Assembly (NCBI GenBank): GCA_018260755.1
Contig: JAGTWP010000009.1
Location: 13,038 to 30,998, forward strand
Source: Candidatus Altarchaeum sp.
GTDB taxonomy: Archaea > Altiarchaeota > Altiarchaeia > Altiarchaeales > Altiarchaeaceae
DNA length: 17,961 bases
Direction: 5' to 3'
The notes under the pieces were generated by a model, which made no database searches, was not told the DNA's origin, and worked only from the letters and a program-made list of their open reading frames with translations. The position numbers were made by a program, and so were the translations under genes. Positions 1,202 to 17,040 of this stretch are shown here, in pieces. How positions within the stretch are numbered: position 1 is the stretch's first letter; each line of letters opens with the position of its first letter.

Positions 1202-1390
1202 CTACTTTTTTATTCTTGCTTTCTTTTCATTCCGGTATTCTTCTGTCCATTTAACATTTCTCGATTTTCTTTTCATTTCGGTATTCCTTCTGCACTTGGA
1301 AGAGCAGTAATTAATCCCTCTTCCTGACAATGTAACCAACAATAACCCAGTTCCTTTTTTAATTTCGGTTCCACAATATGAACATTTCAT
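1202..1390 (-). CDS. rpl24e: Large ribosomal subunit protein eL24 (L24e)
   Basis: A 62-residue protein of the archaeal/eukaryotic L24e family, a zinc-binding protein of the 50S subunit. Four cysteines in the arrangement C3-x2-C6 and C29-x3-C33 form the zinc site, with the family-typical G-T-G and G-R-x-I-N-Y-C segments between them. The C-terminal half is very basic ([20 protein letters not shown]), as expected for rRNA contact. The start overlaps the 3' end of rps28e by 4 bp (ATGA), so the two are translationally coupled. Length is normal for archaeal L24e. In many archaea nucleoside diphosphate kinase and aIF-2 follow; here they do not, and the next gene is an unrelated surface protein. Confidence 0.95.
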
Positions 1391-1632
1391 CTTGCCCTCC
1401 TCTTATTTTTATTTTTAAGTTTCATTAATTTTCTTGCAGCAGTCTCTATTGGCCTTGCTTCTCTTTCGGTTTCTTTCAGGACAAGTACATCTCCCATTCG
1501 TACCGGTGTTCTTACATTTCTCCTTAAAACATTCCCTGCCTCTCTTCCATCCAATAGTTTGCACATAACCTGAATTACTTCTCCGTAAATTCCTGTTCTT
1601 CCAACGACCTCAACAACCTCTGCCAAAGGCAT
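1387..1632 (-). CDS. rps28e: Small ribosomal subunit protein eS28 (S28e)
   Basis: An 81-residue S28e-family protein of the 30S subunit. The conserved core is visible: the segment [22 protein letters not shown], then the R-N-V-R-x-P-V-R-x-G-D strand of the OB-type fold and the E-x-E-R-E-A-R motif. In most archaea the protein ends soon after that motif. Here a basic tail of about 20 residues ([19 protein letters not shown]) follows, which is longer than the 70 or so residues usual for the family. It lies 32 bp downstream of rpl7ae and overlaps rpl24e by 4 bp, in the classical archaeal order. Confidence 0.95.
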
Positions 1633-1664: not shown

Positions 1665-2027
1665 TTACTTTTTGATATCTTTTAGTTTGTTTAAGACATC
1701 TTTCAGTATTTCATTACTTTTACCTTCTTCAACAACACATGCCGCCGAGCACGGAACTTTTAGTCCTATTGCCTTTCCGATATCTTCTTTTTTATCCACA
1801 AACAAGTAAGGGATTTCTTTTTCGTCACACAGCATTGGCAGATGCATAACATTTTCAGGTGGAATTACATCGCCTGCAATTACTACTAATTTCGTAATTT
1901 TTCTTTCAACTGCTTTTGTTACTTCATTTACTCCTTTTTTTATTTTACCCGTATTTTTTGCGGTTTCCAAAACCTCTAAAGATTTTGTTTGCAATTCCGC
2001 AGGTGCTTCAAATTTTACATAACTCAT
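1665..2027 (-). CDS. rpl7ae: Ribosomal protein eL8 / L7Ae, kink-turn RNA-binding protein
   Basis: A 120-residue L7Ae. In archaea this protein is part of the 50S subunit and also the core protein of box C/D and H/ACA guide RNPs and RNase P, binding kink-turns. Family landmarks are the KTGKIKKGVNEVTKAVER segment with its RNA-binding G-x-N-E-x-T-K, the strand LVVIAGDVIPPENVMHLP, the CDEKEIPY turn and the C-terminal G-x-x-V-P-C-S-A-A-C-V-V. The length is typical and the ATG at 2027 gives the expected MSYVKFEAP start. It is the first gene of the ribosomal cluster. Directly upstream lies the 20-bp tandem array, so any promoter must sit in the short segment 2028-2060 or within the array. Confidence 0.96.
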   Translation of the reverse strand: MSYVKFEAPAELQTKSLEVLETAKNTGKIKKGVNEVTKAVERKITKLVVIAGDVIPPENVMHLPMLCDEKEIPYLFVDKKEDIGKAIGLKVPCSAACVVEEGKSNEILKDVLNKLKDIKK

Positions 2028-2060
2028 TTTTCATTGGTTTTGATTTATTGTTTTTATAGT

Positions 2061-2380
2061 TATATTTATTTTATTACTTTTATCTTTATTATATTGCTTT
2101 TATCTTTATTATATTGCTTTTATATTTACTTTATTGTTTTTATCTTTATTATATTGCTTTTATATTTACTTTATTGTTTTTATCTTTATTATATTACTTT
2201 TATATTTACTTTATTGTTTTTATCTTTATTTTATTACTTTTATATTTACTTTATTGTTTTTATCTTTATTATATTACTTTTATATTTACTTTATTGCTTT
2301 TATCTTTATTATATTGCTTTTATCTTTATTATATTGCTTTTATCTTTACTTTATTGCTTTTATCTTTATTTTATTACTTT
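2061..2380. repeat. Array of sixteen 20-bp tandem repeats upstream of rpl7ae
   Basis: The 418-bp gap between EF-1beta and L7Ae holds a phase-perfect 20-bp array with no indels. Units start at 2061, 2081 and every 20 bp to 2361; flanking 20-mers at 2041 and 2381 look like decayed units. There are two main variants: A, tatctttattatattgcttt, and B, tatatttactttattgtttt. From 2121 to 2300 they alternate B-A-B-A, giving a 40-bp higher-order period. One unit at 2341 mixes A and B features. The plus strand contains no stop triplet in any frame, which is why long hydrophobic open frames appear in all three; these are not genes. There are no unique spacers, so it is not CRISPR. Confidence 0.97.
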
Positions 2381-2445
2381 TATATTTTTTATATTTTTTG
2401 AATAATAATTAATCGCACAAGTATAAATTTTTAAATTTCAGAATT

Positions 2446-2745
2446 TTAAATTTCACTGAGTAGATTAATGTCTATTTCGGTAACATTTTCTACATCTGGC
2501 AATTTTGAAATTTTATCCTCTATGCTTTCTAATTCGCTTTTTGCTTCTGTAATTAATATTGCTACTTCTAACGACTTTAAACCAAAAGCAATCGGTCGGA
2601 CTTCAGCGGAATGAAATTTACTTGTTTCGCATTTGCTTAAAATTTCTTTAATTTCATCCTCTACCTTTTTTAAATCAACCTCTATCCCTTTTGGCATTAT
2701 CCTTAATTTTGCAACCATGTTAAATTTCTTTATTTCTTTTCCCAT
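2446..2745 (-). CDS. ef1b: Translation elongation factor 1-beta (aEF-1beta)
   Basis: Archaeal EF-1beta, the guanine nucleotide exchange factor that recycles EF-1alpha. The conserved region starts at MVAKLRIMPKGIEVDLKKVE and continues with the RPIAFGLKSLEVAILI strand and a C-terminal VENVTEIDINLL, as in the roughly 90-residue family members. The frame is open from a TTG at 2775, but a strong AAGGAG lies 9 nt before the ATG at 2745, so I choose that start (99 residues). The ATG at 2718 would give the usual 90-residue family length but lacks such a ribosome binding site. It follows the 62-residue protein by 26 bp on the same strand and is probably cotranscribed with it. Confidence 0.88.
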   Translation of the reverse strand: MGKEIKKFNMVAKLRIMPKGIEVDLKKVEDEIKEILSKCETSKFHSAEVRPIAFGLKSLEVAILITEAKSELESIEDKISKLPDVENVTEIDINLLSEI

Positions 2746-2976: not shown

Positions 2977-3024
2977 TTTTAATTATGAATACTTTTAATT
3001 ATGAATACTTTTAATTATGAATAC
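2977..3024. repeat. Three perfect 16-bp tandem repeats in a divergent promoter region
   Basis: The unit ttttaattatgaatac occurs three times without mismatch (2977, 2993, 3009). It lies in the 137-bp gap between the divergent 62-residue gene and the CitG-like gene, so it may affect both promoters. A further 10-bp duplication, tttactcata twice, sits at 3069-3088, just before the CitG-like start. Confidence 0.95.
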
Positions 3025-3097
3025 TTAATAATATTTTTAACAATAACAATAAAACCATTATGAACAATTTACTCATATTTACTCATATTAATATAAA

Positions 3098-5012: not shown

Positions 5013-5287
5013 TAAATTTAATAAAATTTAATGTTAAAGATAAAATTTATTCAAGTTTATTTAATTATTTATTTAATATTTAAAACATATTTATTTATAT
5101 TTCATTTATATTTTATTTAATATCCAAAACCTATTTATTTATATTTTATTTCATTTTATTTTATTTATTTATATTCAAGATTATAATTTATTATATCCAA
5201 AAATTAATTTATTTATAGTTACTAATCCTAATTAATTAAACAAAAACAAATAAACAAAATTTAAAAATAAAAATTTAAAAATCTAAG
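5013..5287. repeat. AT-rich intergenic region with degenerate approximately 44-bp repeat
   Basis: This 275-bp gap between pelota and the dockerin protein is almost pure A+T. A 37-bp segment at 5071-5107 recurs at 5115-5151 with four mismatches, a 44-bp offset; a weaker third trace starts near 5192. No open frame or RNA gene was found. The promoter of the downstream secreted protein must lie here, but the composition prevents picking a TATA box. Confidence 0.7.
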
Positions 5288-6178: not shown

Positions 6179-6247
6179 GTGGGGATAAATACAAAAATTT
6201 ATTTTAAATTTTTAATTAAAAGTATAAAATATTTAAAAAATTGTAAG

Positions 6248-8893
6248 ATGGGACAAAAAGAAAATTATATAGGGAGTAAAGATTACAAATTTGTTGTGAT
6301 TGCAACGATGTTTTTTATAGGAGGTTTGTTAGTGGTGGGAGGTGTGTCTGCACAAAATGCTACAATATATATAGATGATTACAAGGTCCCTCCAGGTGTG
6401 CCATCTATTGAGATACTAATAAATTTAAATTTATCAGAAAGTTCTAATTATTTTGGAGGTGCCCAATTTAATGTATCATTTGATAACAACATTCTTAATG
6501 CTACTGTCGTTACAAAAAATACTAATTTTGATGGGGGTCTTTGTAATATAAATAACAGCATGGGTTTAGTGAGATGTACTTTGGCATCTTCAGGAGGGAT
6601 ACCGCCCAGTGATTTTATGATTATGCGTATAAATTTTACCATTAATCAATCTTTTATTGGAGTGAAAACTATACTCTCACTTTCTGTTAAAAAGATAATA
6701 GATTATGGATGTGGAGGTTCATGTGAAGCATTAGATTATACGTATTCAATTGAAAATGGTTCTCTACAAATTAATTGTACAAATGATTCAGCATGTGGAG
6801 CAAGTAATTTTTGCAATACAACAACACATTTATGCCAAGCAAATATAACAACAATAACATGTTATGGAGATGCAGATAATGATACTTTTGGAAATGCAAC
6901 AAATACAACTACAACAACAAATGTGACTTGTCCATTAGGATATGTTAATAATAGTTTGGATTGTAATGATACTAATAACGCAACACATCCAGGTGCAACA
7001 GATATTCCAAATAATGGAATTGATGAAAATTGTAATGGATCTGATAACATTACCTATTATGCAGATTTAGATAATGATACTTATGGAAATTTGACAAATA
7101 ATCAAACCACAGATTATATTCCATCCGGAATGTGGATTACTAATGTGAGCATGGCTACTGATTGTAATGACAGCAATCCTGCAATACATCCAAATGCCGC
7201 CGAAATTTATAATGGAATAGATGATAATTGTAACGAAATTATTGATGATTGCTCTTCACTAAATCAGTCAATCAATGCACAAATTTATTGTAATGTGAGT
7301 GGTATAATGAACTACAAAAAAGTATTTAATACAACATGTTCAGCAGAGTGTGAATGTTTAAGTGACAATTGTACAGATGGAAAATGTGCAGGATATTTGT
7401 GTTATATGGATGCTGATAGCGATGGTTTTGGAAATGCAACAAATTATAATGTTTCAAATACCTCCTTATGTCCAACCAATTATGTAAATAATAGCGATGA
7501 TTGTAATGATAATAATTCAGCAATTAATCCAAATACTGTGTGGTATTTTGATTATGATAATGATGGTTATGGAAATGCAATAAATAATGCAACAAACTGT
7601 ACTAAACCATCTGGAAATTGGGTACTTAATAACAAGGATTGTAAGGATAATAATTCATATGTTAATCCAGGCGTGACAGAAAAGATAGGATACTCTTATA
7701 TAATAATTGGTAACACTATTAACACCACCTATTATACATCCTCTGATTATTATACATCCTCTGTGGGTATAGATAATGATTGTGATGGAATTATCAATGA
7801 ACAATGTCATACAGATGCTGATTGTGGAAGTAATTATTATTGCAGTGGCTACACATGTTATAAGAAATCAAGTTCCGAAGGAGGATACACAGGAGTAGTT
7901 GATCTTACACCTCCAAGCCCTGCACAACTCACAACACTTAATGAATTTTCAGGTGTTCCAGGAGAGGCAGAAGGTTTAACCTTTACTTTTAATTTAGGAA
8001 AAGATGCAAAAGGTGCATCAGTTACTGCAACTGTTGGAAATAAAACAAATACAGCAATTGCTAATAATAATGGAACTGTAACTATTGCTCTTCCGGGATA
8101 TGGACAAGGGGAAATAACTGCAAGTAAAACAGGATTTAGGACATTAACAAAAACAATTAATGTTTATGCTGGAACTTTAAATATTGTTAAAATAAGCGGT
8201 GAAAAGTACGGAGACGAATTTAAATTTAAGGTAACAACAAAGGATGGAACTCCAGTAAAAGATGCAAAAGTTGTAATTTATGGAAAAGAATTAAAGACAG
8301 ATGCAAGTGGAATTGTTAAAACGACAATTAAAACAATACAGGCAGGTTTAGAAGCATCTACATCAGCAAAGGACTACAAAGGTTCAAGCATTTTATTTGG
8401 TGTGAATGCGATAGGAAAATTAAGTATGGAAACCCCCGAAAAAGTGACACAAGGTGACACAATTACAATTATCGTAAGAGATGAGAACAAAAACCCGGTA
8501 CCAAATGCAAAGGTTACAATTAATAGTGTTGAACATACAGCAGATGCAAATGGAAAGATTGAATACAAAGTTACAACAACATCATTAACTCTTAAAGCAG
8601 AAAGCGAAGGATATATTCCATCTGAACAGACATCTGTTACAGTTGAAGCAAAGATTGAATGCGGAAACGGAAAATGCGAATCTGGAGAAACAAAGGAAAA
8701 CTGTGCAAAGGATTGCATAGTTTGCGGAGATAAGGTTTGTGATACTGGTGAAAGTTATAAGAATTGTGCAAGCGATTGTCCAAAGCCATCAGATAACACA
8801 TTGTTAATAATAGCAGGTATTTTGATTGTGATATTGTTGATAGCAGCATATTATTTCTTAGTGATGAGAAAAAAGAAGGGAGGAGAAGAATAG
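6248..8893 (+). CDS. Membrane-anchored surface protein: cohesin-like, MopE-like and Ig-like repeats
   Basis: An 881-residue exported protein. Residues 1-35 are a signal peptide ending GGVSA. Residues about 37-175 resemble a cohesin: IYIDDYKVPPG, then GGAQFNVSFDNNILNATVV. Residues about 205-520 hold repeated MopE-like modules, each with a calcium-type D-x-D-N/S-D-x-x-G-N loop (208-217, 273-281, 387-396, 435-443) and a D-C-N/K-D pattern; three also close with G-I-D-x-N/D-C. Residues about 550-800 are Ig/carboxypeptidase-regulatory-like repeats. Two C-G-x-x-x-C-x-x-G-E-x-x-x-N-C modules occupy 805-843, and a transmembrane helix at about 851-873 is followed by a basic tail RKKKGGEE. An upstream in-frame GTG at 6179 would add 23 residues before the signal peptide. 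The ATG at 6248 places the signal peptide normally and is preferred. Likely an S-layer-associated scaffold or adhesin. Confidence 0.85.
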   Translation: MGQKENYIGSKDYKFVVIATMFFIGGLLVVGGVSAQNATIYIDDYKVPPGVPSIEILINLNLSESSNYFGGAQFNVSFDNNILNATVVTKNTNFDGGLCNINNSMGLVRCTLASSGGIPPSDFMIMRINFTINQSFIGVKTILSLSVKKIIDYGCGGSCEALDYTYSIENGSLQINCTNDSACGASNFCNTTTHLCQANITTITCYGDADNDTFGNATNTTTTTNVTCPLGYVNNSLDCNDTNNATHPGATDIPNNGIDENCNGSDNITYYADLDNDTYGNLTNNQTTDYIPSGMWITNVSMATDCNDSNPAIHPNAAEIYNGIDDNCNEIIDDCSSLNQSINAQIYCNVSGIMNYKKVFNTTCSAECECLSDNCTDGKCAGYLCYMDADSDGFGNATNYNVSNTSLCPTNYVNNSDDCNDNNSAINPNTVWYFDYDNDGYGNAINNATNCTKPSGNWVLNNKDCKDNNSYVNPGVTEKIGYSYIIIGNTINTTYYTSSDYYTSSVGIDNDCDGIINEQCHTDADCGSNYYCSGYTCYKKSSSEGGYTGVVDLTPPSPAQLTTLNEFSGVPGEAEGLTFTFNLGKDAKGASVTATVGNKTNTAIANNNGTVTIALPGYGQGEITASKTGFRTLTKTINVYAGTLNIVKISGEKYGDEFKFKVTTKDGTPVKDAKVVIYGKELKTDASGIVKTTIKTIQAGLEASTSAKDYKGSSILFGVNAIGKLSMETPEKVTQGDTITIIVRDENKNPVPNAKVTINSVEHTADANGKIEYKVTTTSLTLKAESEGYIPSEQTSVTVEAKIECGNGKCESGETKENCAKDCIVCGDKVCDTGESYKNCASDCPKPSDNTLLIIAGILIVILLIAAYYFLVMRKKKGGEE
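7730..7765 (+). repeat. 18-bp in-frame tandem duplication
   Basis: Two adjacent copies of an 18-bp unit starting tattatacatcctctg differ only in their last two bases. They encode YYTSSD-YYTSSV just before the last G-I-D-N-D-C module and lengthen a linker without breaking the frame. Confidence 0.9.
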
Positions 8894-16277: not shown

Positions 16278-16781
16278 ATGTACTATTTTGAAGTTCTGGA
16301 AGCATTGTATAAAAGTAAAGTTAAATATCTCATTGTTGGCGGACTCGCTGTCAATCTATATGGCGTGCCGCGACTGTCACAGGATATTGATATTATAATT
16401 TCTACGGATAAAGAGAATGTTTTTAATATAATTTCTTTGTTAGAAAAGATGGATTATGTCCCTCGATTGCCTGTGGATCCTAAAGATATATCCGAACCTG
16501 ATAAAGTAAAATACTGGATTGAACACAAAAATCTCAAGGCGTTCAGTTTTTATCATAAAAAAGACAACTATAAAGTAATTGACCTTTTGTTATTTCACAA
16601 CCTAAATTTTGAAAAATCGTTTGAAAATAAAACAGTAAAAAAAGTGAAATATATAGAAATTTATTTAATATCGATAGATGACCTTATAAAAATGAAGGAG
16701 TTTAGCGGAAGAACGCAAGACTTAAGCGACATAGAAATGCTAAAAAAAGTAAAAAATATAAGAGATATGGGAGATATATAA
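16278..16781 (+). CDS. MNT/AbiEii-type nucleotidyltransferase
   Basis: A 167-residue minimal nucleotidyltransferase. The pol-beta-type signature is V-G-G-L-A-V-N-L-Y-G-V-P-R-L-S-Q-D-I-D-I (20-39), with the G-G motif at 21-22 and the two metal-binding aspartates D36 and D38. The third acidic residue is probably in KVIDLLLF about 75 residues later. The C-terminal part has the family-typical ISIDDLIKMKEFSGRTQDLSDIEML. The frame is open upstream to 16212, but that part (FLNLFVFYSYLLYLLS...) is hydrophobic AT-rich read-through. The ATG at 16278 gives the expected start. Proteins of this kind are often toxins or antitoxins that modify tRNA or partner proteins. A 59-residue gene follows 79 bp later and is the likely partner. 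Confidence 0.82.
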   Translation: MYYFEVLEALYKSKVKYLIVGGLAVNLYGVPRLSQDIDIIISTDKENVFNIISLLEKMDYVPRLPVDPKDISEPDKVKYWIEHKNLKAFSFYHKKDNYKVIDLLLFHNLNFEKSFENKTVKKVKYIEIYLISIDDLIKMKEFSGRTQDLSDIEMLKKVKNIRDMGDI

Positions 16782-16852
16782 AAAATATATGAAATATATG
16801 AAATATAAGAGATATATAAAAAATATAAGAGATATGGGAGATATATAAAAAA
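16751..16852 (+). repeat. 35-bp direct repeat: duplicated 3' end of the nucleotidyltransferase gene
   Basis: Bases 16751-16785 and 16818-16852 are identical. The first copy includes the last nine sense codons and the stop of the nucleotidyltransferase gene; the second lies in the gap before the 59-residue gene. The 32 bp between are a degenerate echo of the same gatatata/aaatata pattern. The duplication separates what was probably a tight two-gene unit. Confidence 0.92.
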
Positions 16853-16860
16853 AATAAAAA

Positions 16861-17040
16861 ATGAAGAAAACAAAAAAAGGATACAGTTATACAATTGAGG
16901 ATGAAAAAATAATCGAATACATGAAATTGTCCACAGAAGATAAATTGAATTGGCTTGAAGAAATAAATGAATTCACGAATATGGTTTTAAATGACAAAGA
17001 GAAAGAAATGAGAGAAAAGTTAAGGAAAGGAGAGATATGA
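16861..17040 (+). CDS. 59-residue partner of the nucleotidyltransferase (antitoxin-like)
   Basis: A 59-residue open frame, MKKTKKGYSYTIEDEKIIEY to EKLRKGEI, with stop TGA at 17038-17040. After a basic, probably disordered start it is acidic-helical: EDEKIIEYMKLSTEDKLNWLEEINEF, then VLNDKEKEMREKLRKG. The pattern I-x-E/Y-x-K-L-S-x-E-x-K-L-x-W-L-E-E-x-N-E-F is one I recall in short proteins encoded beside MNT/AbiEii-type nucleotidyltransferases. I take it as the accessory or antitoxin member of that pair. This is from memory and position, not a database match. No DNA-binding motif is obvious. It ends 15 bp from the convergent TraB-family gene. Confidence 0.7.
   Translation: MKKTKKGYSYTIEDEKIIEYMKLSTEDKLNWLEEINEFTNMVLNDKEKEMREKLRKGEI

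Follow-up and report, generated by a model that had tools for sequence, protein, structure and literature searches.

The 20-bp tandem array that most likely occupies the leader of the L7Ae-S28e-L24e operon in one genome of the genus 'Ca. Altarchaeum' (a 1.32-Mb draft in 78 contigs) is very probably a young, species-level, AT-rich minisatellite, with probably little or no function beyond that of a spacer. It lies in a stretch of 17,961 nucleotides (hereafter the window), and the order on the minus strand is EF1-beta, array, L7Ae, S28e and L24e (Table 1). A longer ORF of elongation factor 1-beta, with a TTG start, extends to 2775. Near the operon (window 6179-8893 and 1-1025), large proteins with internal repeats are encoded that are predicted to be secreted; one of them, of 904 aa, has a signal-like segment at its N-terminus and a membrane anchor at its C-terminus.

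Table 1. Features of the L7Ae operon and its leader region in the window.
Feature	Position	Strand	Basis
Ribosomal protein L24e	1202..1390	-	PF01246
Ribosomal protein S28e	1387..1632	-	PF01200
Ribosomal protein L7Ae	1665..2027	-	PF01248
Proximal flank of the array in the leader, also present in G003, with ACCAATGA	2028..2059	-	Leader comparison
20-bp tandem array, 16.8 copies, 40-bp higher-order period over ~2098-2297	2060..2395	-	TRF, unit table, shuffles
Predicted promoter element AAATTTATACTT (TATA-like) of the L7Ae operon	2419..2430	-	Conserved in 4/4 Altarchaeum genomes
Elongation factor 1-beta (EF-1 guanine nucleotide exchange domain), next gene upstream, same direction	2446..2745	-	PF00736

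An earlier reading of the sequence only had described a gap-free array of 16 units of 20 bp, and the TRF analysis confirmed it, with 16.8 copies over 336 bp, 0% indels and a match of 83% at period 20 that rises to 92% at period 40. The identity of the array at lag 20 was 0.835, whereas the maximum for any lag from 8 to 59 in 1000 dinucleotide shuffles was 0.622, and the periodicity is far beyond chance. As seen in the unit table, the variants TTTTATCTTTATTATATTRC and TTTTATATTTACTTTATTGY alternate strictly from about position 2098 to about 2297, which results in the 40-bp higher-order period; identity in the array is 0.95 between units at lag 2 vs 0.82 at lag 1. Outside this stretch the variants do not alternate. 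The 40-bp period speaks for the proposed growth by two-unit blocks. Variation among the 14 core units is confined to unit positions 7, 12, 14, 19 and 20. The TATA-like AATATAATAAAG, which had been attributed to every unit, occurs 7 times, and the alternate units have AATAAAGTAAAT instead. The copies are arranged head to tail and the unit falls within the range of about 10-60 bp by which minisatellites are recognized.

The plus strand of the array is 68% T, and the L7Ae-sense (minus) strand is rich in A and poor in T. A coding function was rejected because the minus-strand frames hold 13-23 stops, in every frame, and no sense-strand ORF is present; the plus-strand frames are open over the array owing to their T content. 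A terminator of EF1-beta was also rejected, since in the EF1-beta sense strand the array is A-rich and not T-rich. Neither the window nor six related leaders gave a match to a known RNA family.

The position of the array relative to the promoter was analyzed by comparing the four Altarchaeum genomes. Just past the EF1-beta stop, AATTTATACTT followed by a TTAATTA-rich stretch is common to all four, and the distance from this element to the L7Ae start is 71 bp in G001, 87 bp in G003, 141 bp in G002 and 400 bp in the array genome. The TATA-like AAATTTATACTT, conserved in the genus, is found on the far (EF1-beta) side of the array, about 400 bp from the L7Ae start. Moreover, TTTATW elements can be observed upstream of L7Ae, in the same general place, in most members of the class. 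We infer that the conserved TATA-like element is the promoter of the L7Ae operon, in which case transcription would start at about 2400-2405, some 25 nt downstream of it. As the element lies beyond the array, the array is most likely inside the transcribed 5' leader of the operon and not upstream of its promoter. With respect to the coding region, the earlier placement of the array upstream of a ribosomal operon is correct; the probable promoter, in contrast, lies on the opposite side of the array. Transcription of the operon by read-through from EF1-beta may also occur. It is important to mention that a genome-wide promoter motif derived from strand-asymmetric 8-mers was too weak for a consensus, and that a generic TATA search across genes was also weak. 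The predicted 5' leader comprises about 375 nt with the array vs roughly 45-115 nt in the congeners, and would be long given the published range of 10-200 nt for predicted archaeal l7ae 5' UTRs (PMC5539422). The predicted MFE of the leader RNA is 0 kcal/mol, and the RNA is predicted to be A-rich and essentially unstructured.

The array is absent from the orthologous spot in all three congeners (G001, G002 and G003), and a role as a conserved control element is therefore improbable. The lineage specificity of a minisatellite, absent or different in close relatives, is therefore observed. The nearest congener, G003, has an L7Ae that is 92% identical and the same order from EF1-beta to L7Ae; the spacing between these genes is about 100 bp in G003, 75 bp in G001 and 160 bp in G002. 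The G003 leader holds an unrelated 12-bp duplication and the G002 leader an unrelated short repeat of the ATACACAAAT type, which indicates that tandem repeats arise independently at the L7Ae leader. A search for the 20-mer elsewhere in the genome had been suggested, and the unit pair was not found at any other place; nor was it found in the 28 other genomes of the class (29 genomes in total, searched with a 40-bp pattern that spans the variants and tolerates 3 mismatches) or, by exact pattern match, in IMG/VR. A mobile or viral origin was rejected owing to the lack of both IMG/VR matches and dispersed copies in the genome. The proximal edge unit GTAATAAAATAAATATAACT aligns at 18 of 20 positions with a single-copy leader sequence of G003, a match equalled by 0 of 500 shuffles; the core units match the G003 leader no better than shuffles do. 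The homology of the edge unit argues for growth in situ and against a foreign insertion, and the array most likely grew from resident leader sequence, the edge unit being its link to the seed.

The genome-wide context was assessed in a 513-kb sample of the genome, taken in stretches, in which TRF detected 339 non-redundant arrays. After removal of coding arrays by a gene call with a composition filter, 55 noncoding arrays (with a minimum of 3 copies and 50 bp) were counted, with periods of 8-47 bp and 28 of them free of indels, a density of about one array of at least 3 copies per 9 kb. The L7Ae-leader array is the longest (336 bp, followed by 262, 221 and 201 bp). Against this background the indel-free state and the 20-bp period are unremarkable, only the length being extreme, and the array stands at the tail of a continuum of noncoding arrays. 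In an AT-rich archaeal genome so dense in arrays, gap-free phasing is weak evidence of function, and so is a position near a highly expressed operon. The array density by the first gene call, made without the composition filter, was 0.89/kb in divergent, 0.41 in tandem and 0.36 in convergent intergenic regions. Three more AT-rich tandem arrays are present in the window outside the main genes, at 5045-5217 (periods of about 11/22/44 bp), 16741-16877 (9/20/29/38 bp) and 2977-3026 (16 bp). Other long arrays in the genome are found in L099 (5842-6103, 16 bp x 16.8), L100 (29-189, 12 bp x 13.4) and L077 (1-201, 45 bp x 4.5), and several arrays are located at contig ends, places at which an assembly is expected to break.

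These data also bear on whether the array acts as a cis-regulatory leader, in which the copy number would tune the translation or transcription of the L7Ae operon, in a VNTR-like manner, via a long unstructured A-rich 5' UTR. The location of the array between the predicted promoter and the start codon, and the A-rich, predicted unstructured RNA, are consistent with such a role, as are the proximity to a gene start seen for 32 of the 55 noncoding arrays (within 100 bp) and the leaders of this genome, which are generally A-rich near the start codon. However, the A-over-T skew of the start-proximal arrays does not clearly exceed that of matched controls (22/32, p=0.05; skew comparison, p=0.11) and the congeners lack the array, and we therefore regard this role as unlikely, even if an effect of length on expression is possible. 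If the copy number in the leader did set how much L7Ae is made, such a control would be unusual for a ribosomal operon.

The sequence-only reading had offered a protein- or TBP-binding array, a chromatin element or a neutral slippage product, and the evidence favours the last. An array of nucleoid-protein or TBP binding sites with its units on one helical face would fit the exact 20-bp phase, and Alba, found in three of the four Altarchaeum genomes, is encoded in the array genome on the array's own contig. The units do not share one face, though, as had been claimed: 20 bp make 1.9 turns at 10.5 bp/turn, so that each unit is rotated by -34 degrees relative to the previous one, with a drift of about 1.5 turns over the array, and an integral number of turns is obtained only at a helical repeat near 10.0. 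Additionally, the periods of the 55 noncoding arrays do not cluster at helical-turn multiples (Rayleigh p 0.11-0.21 for 10.0-11.0 bp), and their mean phase is away from zero. An archaeal histone (PF00808), which a histone-bound element presupposes in the organism, was not detected in the four Altarchaeum genomes (G000-G003, 65-87% complete), with positive controls. TTTATA and TTTATTA, typical of the L7Ae locus in the class, would be expected in sense orientation in each unit of a TBP-site array; they occur 0 times on the minus (L7Ae-sense) strand and 7 and 10 times, respectively, on the plus strand. Neither a conserved position nor dispersed sites of the same motif were found, and binding sites of this type are highly improbable. 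The signs named beforehand as speaking against function are largely those observed. The three congeners have no such array at this place; the other repeats, in relatives' leaders and in the same genome, are unrelated sequences of arbitrary periods; and the conserved TATA-like element, as a predicted promoter, puts the likely transcription start outside the array.

We propose that the growth would have begun with the duplication of 20 bp already resident in the L7Ae-S28e-L24e leader, in the interval from promoter to start codon, and that a divergent two-unit block (40 bp) would then have been duplicated repeatedly, via replication slippage or unequal recombination, in a genus with many such arrays in its noncoding DNA. 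Slippage is the mechanism that we consider plausible for this growth, which would have lengthened the predicted leader to its present size. On the comparison of one genome per species, the minisatellite is probably near-neutral. Against this interpretation, the array is the longest noncoding one in the sample and lies at a ribosomal operon, the core units do not resemble the G003 leader beyond the level of shuffles, the promoter position is a predicted one, and the copy number in a fragmented draft may be misassembled. That the array is an assembly artefact, a shorter or longer repeat inflated or collapsed, is extremely unlikely. The draft state of the genome would allow it, as 336 bp may exceed the read length and tandem repeats are known to cause errors in assemblies (PMC6868369); but the distinct unit variants in non-random order and the unique flanks in normal gene order support the existence of an array, and the doubt is limited to its copy number.

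The leader can be compared to two known systems. The autoregulatory k-turn of the archaeal l7ae 5' UTR (PMC5539422, PMC6298567) resides in the same mRNA leader as the array. In 19 of the 26 Altiarchaeota leaders compared, against 0.07 expected from shuffles, the 60 nt that precede L7Ae contain CCRATGA, a match to the bulged strand (CC-GAU-GA) of the k-turn published for the l7ae leader. The GAU-bulge/GA signature (CCGATGA) closely precedes L7Ae in most of the Altiarchaeota analyzed. The array itself lacks a k-turn signature, and in Altarchaeum the k-turn-like motif is degenerate, reduced to ACCAATGA directly before the L7Ae start codon (window 2028-2045); the Altarchaeum leader has no clear Shine-Dalgarno sequence and no clear partner strand for ACCAATGA, and the congener G002 does not have this motif before L7Ae. 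It is very unlikely that a variable-number A-rich repeat tunes the operon and partly replaces the k-turn/Shine-Dalgarno feedback, which appears to be retained in other Altiarchaeota. The second system is that of the prokaryotic satellites and minisatellites surveyed in PMC6749651. The array differs from these in that its unit is AT-rich, is not a multiple of three and is located within a ribosomal operon leader; it resembles them in its noncoding head-to-tail units of one length with variants, local and not dispersed, and repeat content also varies widely from one archaeal genome to another.
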